From an uncultured Acidimicrobiales bacterium (GTDB lineage Bacteria > Actinomycetota > Acidimicrobiia > Acidimicrobiales > Aldehydirespiratoraceae): DNA of 64,000 nucleotides. The stretch spans positions 1 through 64,000 of the forward strand of contig CAJQPN010000003.1 in the NCBI GenBank assembly GCA_905480195.1, written 5' to 3'. The position numbers and the translations under genes are program-made. The notes below the pieces were generated by a model that did not search any database, was not told where the DNA came from, and worked only from the letters and a program-made list of their open reading frames with translations. Below are positions 43,353-46,814 of this stretch, piece by piece (position 1 is the stretch's first letter; every line of letters begins with the position of its first letter).

Positions 43353-43769
43353 TTACAGCGATGGTTGACCCGTCGGTTCGGGATCAGGAGTGTTGCGCAT
43401 GAAGTCGGCGGAACGCACGAAGTACTCGATCATCGTCGATCGGACCGGCTCGGGTGGTGGGACTTCCTCGAGTGCGTCGAGCATCGCGCGCAGCCACGCA
43501 TCACGGGCGGCGGTGTCGACGACGAACGGATTGTGCCGCATCCGCAGGCGGGGGTGCCCGCGCTGGTCGCTGTAGGCAGTGGGGCCGCCCCAGTACTGCA
43601 CGAGGAAGAGGGTGAGGCGTTCCTTCGCACCCGAGAGATCGTTCGGATACATAGGACGCAGAAGTTCATCTTCTGCGACGCGGGCGTAAAACCGTTCAAC
43701 CAGCCCTGCGAAAAACGGCGTGCCCCCGGCCGCTTCGTACACCGTGACCTGTTCTCCCACGGGAGGCAC
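43353..43769 (-). CDS. Truncated haemoglobin, group II (trHbO-like)
   Basis: A globin of about 138 residues. It shows VERFYARVAEDELLRPMYP with a Tyr at the CD1-like position, and GGPTAYSDQRGHPRLRMRH with the proximal His in RMRHNPFVV. This is the group II truncated globin signature, plus DAWLRAMLDAL with the G8 Trp. Such proteins bind O2/NO and may detoxify NO or peroxide. The start is uncertain: GTG codons occur at 43814, 43769 and 43760, and the long open frame further upstream is antisense to the GHMP kinase. Intergenic space of about 150 bases lies before HU. Confidence 0.88.
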   Translation of the reverse strand: MPPVGEQVTVYEAAGGTPFFAGLVERFYARVAEDELLRPMYPNDLSGAKERLTLFLVQYWGGPTAYSDQRGHPRLRMRHNPFVVDTAARDAWLRAMLDALEEVPPPEPVRSTMIEYFVRSADFMRNTPDPEPTGQPSL

Positions 43770-43921
43770 CGTAGCGCTGCGAAAGCCTGATTCCGGGACC
43801 CCAACGTTTGACACTCTCGGGATCAAACTGGCCTCTCCGTCGCCAAGTTGGCGACTCGTGTGACGTCTGCGCCCTGCCGTCGTTGGCTCATTGCCCTCCC
43901 GTGGATTGATAGGTTTTGCCC

Positions 43922-43996
43922 ATGACGGAGCTGACGATCGAGCCGACGCTGCAATCAGCGGCCCAACGTCGCCCCGTCGGGATCGCTTGGTCGTGA
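43922..43996 (+). CDS. Possible 24-codon leader ORF coupled to the GHMP kinase
   Basis: ATG at 43922 opens MTELTIEPTLQSAAQRRPVG and ends with TGA at 43994-43996. That TGA overlaps the GTG start (43993) of the kinase frame as GTGA. A TAGGTT box lies 6 bases before this ATG, matching the leaderless promoters of other genes here. It may be translated so that ribosomes reinitiate on the kinase. Alternatively the kinase starts at an upstream TTG in its own frame and this ORF is incidental. Confidence 0.4.
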   Translation: MTELTIEPTLQSAAQRRPVGIAWS

Positions 43997-44904
43997 ACGA
44001 CGCCGCAACCGGTCGAGCGCGACCGTGCATCGCCCTACTCGGCAACCCCAGCGATCTCTTCGGCGGCACCGTGCTCGCTGCCACCATCGACACGTTTGAG
44101 ACAGTCGTCGACATCATCCCGACGACGTTCTACGCGCCACCCGCTTTTCTCTCCGACGCCGCCGAGCTGCAACGGCTCGTCTTTGAGCGAGTAGCTGCCG
44201 GACGAGCAGGCTGCGCGATGACCCTTCGCTCGGACGTGCCGAGCCAAGCCGGCCTTGGTGGCTCGAGCGCAATTCTCATTGCCACAGTGCGAGCCATCGA
44301 CTCCTACTACGGCCTCGGCCTCGCTCCACTCGACATCGCTGCAGTGGCATGGGCAGTCGAGCGCGACGATCTTGGGATCGTGGCCGGGCCTCACGATCGG
44401 GTGATCCAAGCGCTCGGCGGCCTCCAACTGATGGACTTCAGTGGGCCTGATCGCATCGGCCGTCACCGCTGCGTCGACGCCACACTCTTGCCACCACTGC
44501 TTATCGCCTGGCCGAACGAACCCGACCAGGCATCGGACGATGGTCACCGCTTGGTCTGGGAACGAATCCAGGCCGGTGACACCATGCTGGGCCGGCAGCT
44601 ACTCGAGTTCGCCTCAATCGCCGAACACGGCACTGCAGCTCTTGAAGGCGGTGATCACGCAACCTTCGCCGATGCAGTCGATACGAACTTTGATCTGCGC
44701 TGCTCTCTCTTCGATGTCGACGCAGACGACCGTCGCCTCGTCGATGTTGCACGAGCGGCCGGCGGCGCAGCGAAACTGAGCGGCAGCGGAGGTTCGATTG
44801 TTGCGGTGCCTCGCCCCGGTGGCAGGCTCGAAGAGATCAGCGAAGCCCTCGTAGCTGCGGGAGCCTCAGTCAGCCGCAGCGTTCGGATCGCGCTCGCCCC
44901 GTAG
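43993..44904 (+). CDS. Glucuronokinase-like GHMP kinase
   Basis: A 303-residue GHMP-superfamily sugar kinase. Motif 1 is IALLGNPSDLFGGTV (residues 13-27), motif 2 VPSQAGLGGSSAILIATV with the Gly-rich phosphate loop, then GIVAGPHDRVIQALGGLQLMDF, and motif 3 AAKLSGSGGSIVAV. The NPSD start, the AG-x-DRV-x-Q-x-x-GGL block and LLPPL are features of plant glucuronokinase, which phosphorylates D-glucuronate at C1. Other GHMP kinases (mevalonate, galactokinase) fit worse. No UDP-sugar pyrophosphorylase is adjacent. Its 3' end overlaps the convergent enoyl-CoA hydratase by 39 bases. Confidence 0.8.
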   Translation: MNDAATGRARPCIALLGNPSDLFGGTVLAATIDTFETVVDIIPTTFYAPPAFLSDAAELQRLVFERVAAGRAGCAMTLRSDVPSQAGLGGSSAILIATVRAIDSYYGLGLAPLDIAAVAWAVERDDLGIVAGPHDRVIQALGGLQLMDFSGPDRIGRHRCVDATLLPPLLIAWPNEPDQASDDGHRLVWERIQAGDTMLGRQLLEFASIAEHGTAALEGGDHATFADAVDTNFDLRCSLFDVDADDRRLVDVARAAGGAAKLSGSGGSIVAVPRPGGRLEEISEALVAAGASVSRSVRIALAP

Positions 44905-45630
44905 GAAGGCGTCGCGTGCCTCGTCGCCGTGGCCCTGCAGGTTCAACTCGTAGGTGAACCCCTGTTCGAAGCGATACGACTCCATCGGTGAGTGATCGAT
45001 GCCGTTCAGCGACACCTTGGCCGCACGAATCACCGGAGCTGACTTTGACGCGATGGTACCGGCCACCACCCGCGCGGTCTCCATGAGCTCATCAAGCGGC
45101 ACCACCCGCAACACGGTGCCCCACTCGAGGAGTTGCTCTGCAACAACCGGCTCACAGCTGTACAGCATCCAGCGAAGATGCTTTTCGGGCACCAGACGGC
45201 GGAGGTGCGTCGCTGCTCCGAGCGCACCATTGTCAACCTCCGGAAGCCCGAAGCGCACACCCTCGGCGGCAACGACGACATCAGCAGACCCGACGAGACC
45301 AATCCCGGTTCCGAGGCAGAAGTCGTTCACCGCACAAACCACAGGAACGGCGCACTCGTAGACAGCCCGGAACGCCTCGGCACATGCACGGTTGACTGCA
45401 AGTATCCCCTCGTGCCCGGGCATCGCCTGCATCTCCTTGATGTCGACACCTGCGCAGAAGCCTCGTCCGGTTGCGGTGATAATCACCGCACTGATCTCGG
45501 ACCGCTGCTTCACTTCGTCAAGAATCTCCGCAACGGCGTACGTGTCGGCGATCGGAAGCGCGTTGACCTTCGGGTTGTCCATCACCAGCTCAAGGACGCC
45601 GGCGTCAGAGACAGACTGGTGGATCGTCAT
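44866..45630 (-). CDS. Enoyl-CoA hydratase/isomerase family protein
   Basis: A 254-residue crotonase-fold enzyme. IITATGRGFCAGVDIKEM is the oxyanion-hole region, and VCAVNDFCLGTGIGLVGSADVVVAA the second one. EVDNGALGAATHLRRLVPE carries an acidic residue where catalytic Glu are found. It hydrates or isomerises acyl-CoA intermediates; the substrate is unknown. ATG overlaps the stop of the thiolase-like gene (ATGA), so it is co-translated with it. The long N-terminal extension of the raw frame is not family-like. Confidence 0.9.
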   Translation of the reverse strand: MTIHQSVSDAGVLELVMDNPKVNALPIADTYAVAEILDEVKQRSEISAVIITATGRGFCAGVDIKEMQAMPGHEGILAVNRACAEAFRAVYECAVPVVCAVNDFCLGTGIGLVGSADVVVAAEGVRFGLPEVDNGALGAATHLRRLVPEKHLRWMLYSCEPVVAEQLLEWGTVLRVVPLDELMETARVVAGTIASKSAPVIRAAKVSLNGIDHSPMESYRFEQGFTYELNLQGHGDEARDAFLRGERDPNAAAD

Positions 45631-46814
45631 CGCCGCACCAAGACCGACGATCCGTGACCGAAGAGGCCCTGATTTGCGGTGATGCCAACTCTGGCTCCCT
45701 CGACCTGGCGGCGTCCAGCTTGGCCACGGAGCTGCCACACCAGCTCGCACACCTGCGCAATCGCCTGTGCAGGCACAGCCTCGCCGAACGCACCCAGACC
45801 GCCCGAAGGGTTGACCGGGAGCCGGCCGCCGATCTCGGTATCGCCGTTCCGCAGCATCTGTTCAGCCTCGCCTTCGGCGCAGAATCCGAGTTGCTCGTAC
45901 CAGTCGAGCTCGAGCGATGACGAGAGGTCATACACCTCGGCGACGTCGACGTCTTCGGGGCCGAGGCCGGCTTCCTCGTAGACCTTGTCGCCGATGGATT
46001 CCTTGAAGCCCCGGAGTGGCTCAGCTGTGGCACCGGCCGAATCGGTGGCGATGTAAGGAAGATCAATCATCGTGTCGGGGTACGTCGGCGTCACCGTCGA
46101 TAGGCCACCAATGCGGACGGGATCGTCGTGACCGAGCGACCTCGCGTAGTCGAGAGAACACACGACCAGCGCCGCACCGCCGTCGGAGGTGGCGCAGATG
46201 TCGAGCAGGCGCAACGGGTCGGAAACGACGGGCGAGTTCAGCACATCATCGACGTCGTACTCTTTGGTGAAACGAGCCCGCTCATTGTGCACCGCATGCC
46301 GCGAGTTCTTGACCTTCACGCGAGCGAAGTCTTCGCTCGTGGCGCCAAAGACGTCCATGCGACGACGGGCGTTCAGACCGAAATACACCGGATTTGTTGC
46401 ACCAACGAGCTTGAACCGTAACCAGTCGAGATCATCTGGCCGGTCGCCTTCGTTGGGCTTCAGGAACCCCTTCGGCGTCGTGTCGGCTCCGACGACGAGT
46501 GCCACCTCGGTCACACCCGAGAAGATCTGGCCACGCGCGACCTGCAACGCAGTCACACCCGACGCACAAGCCGAGTAGCTCGACGACACCTGGGCGCCGT
46601 TGAAGCCAAGCGCCCGCGCGAACGTAGAGCCGGCGACGTACCCGGGGTAGCCGTTGCGGACGGTGATTGCGCCCGAGATGTAGCCGACGTCCCGCCAGTC
46701 GACGCGCGCTTCCGCAAGCGCTTCGCGAGCTGCGAATGTGCCGTACTCGGCGAAGTTGCGGCCCCACTTGCCCCAGGGGTGCATGCCGACACCAATGATT
46801 GCGAGATCGTCCAT
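45627..46814 (-). CDS. Thiolase-superfamily lipid-transfer protein (Ltp/SCP-x type)
   Basis: A 395-residue thiolase-fold protein starting MDDLAIIGVGMHPWGKWG. It has Cys in VSSSYSACASGVTALQ, the position of the thiolase nucleophile. DICATSDGGAALVV, EVYDLSSSLELDWYEQLGF and GGLGAFGEAVPAQAIAQV follow. These are typical of Ltp-type proteins, which in steroid side-chain degradation act as aldolases with a DUF35 partner. The gene encoding a DUF35 protein is directly upstream, 2 bases away. The substrate is unknown; a branched or sterol-derived acyl-CoA is a reasonable inference. Confidence 0.87.
   Translation of the reverse strand: MDDLAIIGVGMHPWGKWGRNFAEYGTFAAREALAEARVDWRDVGYISGAITVRNGYPGYVAGSTFARALGFNGAQVSSSYSACASGVTALQVARGQIFSGVTEVALVVGADTTPKGFLKPNEGDRPDDLDWLRFKLVGATNPVYFGLNARRRMDVFGATSEDFARVKVKNSRHAVHNERARFTKEYDVDDVLNSPVVSDPLRLLDICATSDGGAALVVCSLDYARSLGHDDPVRIGGLSTVTPTYPDTMIDLPYIATDSAGATAEPLRGFKESIGDKVYEEAGLGPEDVDVAEVYDLSSSLELDWYEQLGFCAEGEAEQMLRNGDTEIGGRLPVNPSGGLGAFGEAVPAQAIAQVCELVWQLRGQAGRRQVEGARVGITANQGLFGHGSSVLVRR

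Follow-up and report, generated by a model that had tools for sequence, protein, structure and literature searches.

A GHMP kinase related by descent to plant glucuronokinase, with two altered active-site positions, in an uncultured Acidimicrobiales bacterium

The window, a stretch of 64,000 nucleotides from the genome of an uncultured Acidimicrobiales bacterium, carries a GHMP kinase gene that stands by itself, flanked by a divergent gene for a truncated haemoglobin and a convergent one for an enoyl-CoA hydratase (Table 1). The enclosing open reading frame covers 43891-44904 on the forward strand and closes with TAG. GTG 43993 is the likely start, because an ATG occupies exactly the same place in the nearest congener (L037) and the starts at L039 and L040 lie at most two residues away. 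The end of the enoyl-CoA hydratase gene overlaps the kinase by 39 bases, an overlap that recurs in L069, L070, and L071. A domain scan of the neighbours recognised no sugar gene adjacent to the kinase, and the genes upstream of the locus, by a reading of their open reading frames alone, are presumably those of fatty-acid synthesis.

Table 1. Coordinates of the kinase gene, its motifs, and its neighbours in the window
Feature	Position	Strand	Evidence
Glucuronokinase-type GHMP kinase, 303 aa, GTG start (likely)	43993..44904	+	Pfam domains, orthologues, trees
Codon 12, TGC (Cys); Arg in 32/34 family rows; aligns with WcbL Arg13	44026..44028	+	Alignment
GNPSD motif, residues 17-21	44041..44055	+	Family alignment
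GLGGSSA, residues 87-93	44251..44271	+	Alignment with WcbL Ser118-120
GPHDR, residues 132-136; Asp135 aligns with WcbL Asp163; His134 in place of Gln	44386..44400	+	Alignment
GSGG, residues 264-267	44782..44793	+	Alignment
Truncated haemoglobin (Bac_globin), divergent neighbour, start not settled; outside the kinase system	43353..43790	-	Pfam scan
Enoyl-CoA hydratase, convergent neighbour; outside the kinase system	44866..45750	-	ORF list, domain scan

Pfam recognises GHMP_kinases_N (1.5e-14) and GHMP_kinases_C (1.3e-6) in the product, both beyond the cut-off. Full-length orthologues are present in three congeners at 75, 59, and 58% identity, third codon positions change more than either other position in comparisons of the window with the congeners, and the NG86 dN/dS values are 0.16 to the nearest congener and 0.32 and 0.25 to the other two. 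Since the gene order around the kinase is also common to the congeners, the frame is a real, conserved gene. As counter-evidence, a crude gene caller based on codon-position GC chose an antisense frame, 44035-44547 on the reverse strand, over the kinase frame, the GC content of which is 0.74/0.52/0.69 by codon position. The first-pass annotation had proposed a GHMP kinase with three motifs at this place; the frame is indeed open, and the motifs, namely NPSD, the block AGPHDRVIQALGGL (residues 131-144), and SGSGG (residues 263-267), are all present.

A family alignment of 34 rows, which includes the divergent member L008 and excludes L030, was set beside five comparison kinases. Gly17, Asn18, Pro19, and Arg236 occur in every family row and Gln139 in 33, and Asn18, Pro19, Gln139, and Arg236 are absent from all five comparison kinases. 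The window kinase keeps these family residues, with GNPSD, Gln139, Arg236, and GSGG all in place, and its GLGGSSA segment is taken here to be the ATP-binding loop. The spacing from GNPSD to GLxGSSA is 67-70 residues in the window kinase and its six clade mates, and 100-101 residues in the plant enzyme, the plasmid kinase of Rufibacter tibetensis, and a kinase on an IMG/VR contig. In the rest of the family rows the spacing varies between 67 and 134 residues; a short stretch by itself therefore does not set the clade of the window apart.

The Arabidopsis GlcAK reference, both its name (At3g01640) and its sequence, was written out independently of any database record and is assumed to be correct. 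Searched against a set of 670 sequences, it matched first the Rufibacter kinase (44% over 325 residues), a protein that had no part in drawing up the reference, which supports the reference. The next matches were the congener L003, the window kinase (32% over 339 residues, E 2e-36), L005, and L009; the remaining ones, at 22-29%, were mostly heptokinase-like, with L008 among them. Local alignment to the reference put the window kinase at 36% over 284 residues, with a score of 308 compared with a mean of 33 and a maximum of 60 in 200 shuffles, and the Rufibacter kinase at 45% over 316 residues. A profile of 27 bacterial family members, built without the window genus, the plant sequence, L030, and L008, scored the plant sequence at 288 bits and the window kinase at 233 bits. 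The corresponding scores from 17 heptokinase-like rows, a profile likewise built without L030 and L008, were 71 and 96.5 bits. The window kinase and the Arabidopsis reference share GNPSD, GLxGSSA, AGxxDRV, and GSGG and fall in the same clade. They differ in that the window kinase is bacterial, is 31 residues shorter between GNPSD and GLxGSSA, and carries Cys12 and His134.

Two trees were calculated. In a 56-row tree that contains ThrB, two IspE-type rows, GalK, and MVK as long outgroups, 33 family rows including L008 lie on one side of a modestly supported branch (83/57). In a 52-row tree, from which ThrB, the IspE rows, L030, and L008 were left out and to which the IMG/VR kinase was added, 33 family rows form a clade with support 100/100, apart from the 17 heptokinase-like rows, MVK, and GalK. 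That clade consists of the window kinase, the plant reference sequence, the Rufibacter kinase, the IMG/VR kinase, and 29 kinases of the order to which the window belongs. Closest to the window kinase are three congeners (100/100), and L055, L057, and L061 join these four in a clade of seven rows (100/98 in the 52-row tree). The plant, Rufibacter, and IMG/VR sequences group together (100/98) and adjoin kinases of nine genomes of the same order (98/98 for the 12), and the branch uniting the group of seven with the group of 12 has support 94/74. The earlier proposal, that the protein resembles plant glucuronokinase more than bacterial GHMP kinases, agrees with both trees as far as the mevalonate, homoserine, galacto-, and heptokinases compared are concerned, and the homology of the window kinase with the plant-type enzyme is well supported.

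The distribution of the family was assessed in samples with many incomplete assemblies, to which all genome counts refer. In a sample of the phylum, 28 of 396 genomes have a match at 1e-8, and family-type motifs are found in four of them (G000, G156, G113, and G031), all of the same order as the window. Fifteen of the other 24 were placed in the 56-row tree, where 14 fall with the heptokinases and L030 stands apart; the nine weak matches L014, L017, L019, L020, L024, L026, L027, L028, and L031 lie outside the trees. In a sample of the order, 54 of 397 genomes match a five-row profile at 1e-15, and 31 of these matches were read; the other 23 are G710, G742, G643, G447, and G397 (133-177 bits) and 18 genomes at 101 bits or less. 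GNP[S/G]D is present in all of the best 30 loci, and the 31st genome, G031 (L008), has GNPSE. With the Rufibacter protein at 1e-5, a set of 72,556 plasmid records gave no match beyond the record of that protein itself; the window protein matched 13 of the records, in no case over 80% coverage.

No linked sugar-1-phosphate nucleotidyltransferase was found at the window locus. Such a gene does accompany the kinase in two of its three closest relatives outside the genus, both inside the seven-row clade: at L072 (G429) and L074 (G454), the loci of kinases L055 and L061, the kinase stop overlaps the ATG of an NTP transferase gene (ATGA) in a two-gene operon. The two NTP transferases have 273 or 251 residues and are 48% identical to each other, and with the six best candidates scored per genome, proteins of this type were matched at 1e-20 in two of 397 genomes, in both at the kinase. 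At L073, the third relative, none of three NTP-transferase queries gave a match. The window genome has no full match to the L072/L074 protein, its best being partial at 4.7e-11, and weaker matches (1e-10 to 1e-15) occur in seven further genomes of 39, that of the window included. On the Rufibacter plasmid (L032), the kinase (WP_062546164.1), which belongs to the same family as the window kinase, has plant-like length and is 32% identical to it, is followed by a galU that scores above the curated cut-off. Linkage to an NTP transferase in relatives is the strongest functional hint that the sequences offer.

Kinase neighbours at 13 loci, picked by the crude gene caller, were mostly genes such as those for RNase HII (L087), GatB (L085), CorA (L075), and an amidase (L079), and 10 of the 30 chosen frames had no Pfam match. 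At one locus a family kinase is followed on its own strand, after about 110 bases, by a gene for a protein with apiosidase and xylan-binding domains (L082:8727-10784, forward strand), a neighbour that may hint at plant cell-wall sugars.

Other genes of uronate and UDP-glucuronate metabolism were sought elsewhere. Uronate isomerase was found in none of the 39 genomes searched, the window genome included, and in seven of 14 controls. Myo-inositol oxygenase matched 23 of 397 order genomes, six of them above the cut-off; the match in the window genome lies below it, and none of the six is among the 31 genomes in which a family kinase was read. A search for UDPGP-type pyrophosphorylases returned no match in the genomes and none in the controls either. 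The window genome does encode a protein with a UDPG_MGDP_dh_N domain (UDP-glucose/GDP-mannose dehydrogenase), which makes UDP-glucose a possible alternative source of UDP-glucuronate. It also encodes a GalU-like protein (L067:1267-2298, reverse strand, contig C1) that matches positions 1-174 of the 261 in the GalU model. The unmatched last third, for which other frames gave no further piece, may be either real divergence or an assembly error. With both proteins in the genome, a glucuronokinase route would be an extra one.

For the family as a whole, the best reading is salvage of glucuronate to UDP-glucuronate. The kinase would likely convert ATP and D-glucuronate to ADP and glucuronate-1-phosphate, and a UTP-dependent sugar-1-phosphate nucleotidyltransferase would then convert glucuronate-1-phosphate to UDP-glucuronate; this second enzyme would be the operon partner at L072 and L074 and GalU or another general enzyme elsewhere. 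Substrate, product, and pathway are inferred from the linkage to NTP transferase or galU genes in relatives and from the zebrafish enzyme DrGKUP, a fusion of a glucuronokinase with a bacterial-type nucleotidyltransferase of 260 residues (PMC3938481). The zebrafish kinase is described as highly selective for glucuronate and the second activity, a putative UDP-pyrophosphorylase, as extremely low, and the portion of that report at hand mentions prokaryotic relatives for the pyrophosphorylase domain only (PMC3938481). The operons at L072 and L074 resemble the fish system, as judged by its published description, in pairing a glucuronokinase with a short, bacterial-type nucleotidyltransferase, but the two are fused in the fish and are separate genes in the operons, and the window locus has no such pair. 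More tentatively, the operons may represent a complete bacterial salvage route of two translationally coupled genes, equivalent to the animal fusion enzyme in unfused form, with the plant enzyme arising from the bacterial group and the route decaying in the genus of the window.

Glucuronokinase has been described from plants and lower animals, and no paper on a bacterial one was recognised among the matches listed. A bacterial branch accompanied by an operon partner would have implications for where the plant enzyme came from. It would also supply enzymes on which to test a pathway whose second step could barely be measured in the fish enzyme, and it would give a name to a family for which no NCBIfam model exceeds its cut-off with the window, Rufibacter, or plant reference sequence.

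The window copy itself departs from its family at two active-site positions. At residue 12 it has Cys, against Arg in 32 of 34 family rows and His in L008, and at residue 134 it has His, against Gln in 30 of the 34 rows; Arg12 and Gln134 are kept in the other five full-length copies of the genus. Cys12 and His134 align with Arg13 and Gln162 of the heptokinase WcbL (numbered by chain position, in agreement with Ser118-120), and in WcbL the mutants R13A and Q162L are reported to have lost all activity (PMC4691232). Because these positions are essential in WcbL, activity of the window copy is doubtful, and it is probably weak, altered, or inactive. Lacking the Arg12 and Gln134 of its relatives, the window kinase is classed as a variant by descent rather than as a proven enzyme. 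We regard as probable, without being firm, the combined account of a kinase of the glucuronokinase clade by descent, a family that salvages glucuronate, and a window copy probably impaired or changed. The first-pass reading as a glucuronokinase therefore stands for descent; it had overlooked the two substitutions, the decayed copy described below, and the NTP transferase linkage found in relatives and not here.

It is possible, if rather unlikely, that the gene is non-functional and on its way out, with a product that folds without catalysis. The inactive WcbL mutants fit this, as does the state of the genus, in which seven of nine genomes match the kinase, six with full-length copies and one with a remnant. 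The remnant, in G680 (98% complete; L122:1321-1788, forward strand), is that of an orthologous kinase. A large part of its interior is deleted and the frame changes near the start, and it keeps residues ~12-105 and the last few in one frame around the deletion. The other two genomes, G763 and G766, have no kinase match at 1e-20, but they are 89 and 92% complete. The gene is solitary in the genus and lost or broken in some species. Against decay of the window copy stand its full-length open frame, the dN/dS of 0.16 to the nearest congener, and its intact Asp135 and GLGGSSA loop.

Somewhat less probable is that the window kinase is a working sugar-1-kinase of its clade but acts on another uronate or sugar, its specificity shifted by the altered pocket and the shortened stretch. 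The differences at residues 12 and 134, the 67-70-residue spacing compared with the plant type, the 36% identity to the plant reference sequence, and the dN/dS of 0.16 would all be consistent with such an enzyme, as would the apiosidase neighbour at L082. However, the family motif residues are kept, and the characterised relatives point to glucuronate: the zebrafish enzyme is selective for it, and a glucuronate Km is given for the Arabidopsis enzyme (PMC3938481).

It seems improbable that errors of sequencing or binning produced Cys12 and His134 in what is in truth an ordinary family member. TGC is one transition away from the Arg codon CGC, and the assembly is in 66 contigs and 87% complete, but two point errors would have had to arise separately, with no frameshift, and both at otherwise well conserved sites.

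An identity as a mevalonate, homoserine, galacto-, or D-glycero-D-manno-heptose kinase is very improbable, even though the best single-sequence NCBIfam and PDB matches bear these names, since the NCBIfam scores are far under their cut-offs (57 of 600 and 51 of 403 bits, for example) and the trees reject the unions. The phylogeny that had been suggested as a check, against mevalonate and homoserine kinases, rejected both: joining the genus to MVK gave an AU p of 0.0023 (TIGR00549, 32.5 of 163 bits) and to ThrB 0.0097 (TIGR00191, 27 of 168 bits). Joining it to three heptokinases gave 1.4e-9, with NF049969 at the 57 bits given above. Galactokinase is ruled out by tree position alone, and IspE by the trees. 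All NCBIfam matches of the window kinase, to mevalonate, heptose-7-phosphate, shikimate, galacto-, homoserine, and other kinases, are below cut-off. The WcbL/HddA heptokinases (4usm, 3k85, 4n3o) share the fold and Asp135 with the window kinase, and Arg12 and Gln134 with its relatives, but have Gly-Gly in place of the Asn-Pro of the family and form a separate clade (98/96). The AlphaFold2 model (pLDDT 91.6) has a GHMP fold. VIA-align places WcbL (4usm) closest at Z 32.2, tied with mevalonate kinases, and Foldseek ranks mevalonate kinases first; because WcbL, mevalonate kinases, and galactokinases all lie within Z 30-32, the fold gives no substrate.

Two further family members were noted. A plant-type, full-length glucuronokinase-like gene lies on the viral-collection contig IMGVR_UViG_3300017963_003169 (L093:3722-4738, forward strand) amid tightly packed same-strand frames, where two of the 10 neighbours scanned have a Pfam match (CxxCxxCC and DHHA1); its source may be either a virus or a mislabelled bacterial contig. 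In the single-contig genome G031, the member at L008:1459-2394 (forward strand) departs from the family at several catalytic positions, GNPSE included, and is perhaps a pseudo-enzyme.
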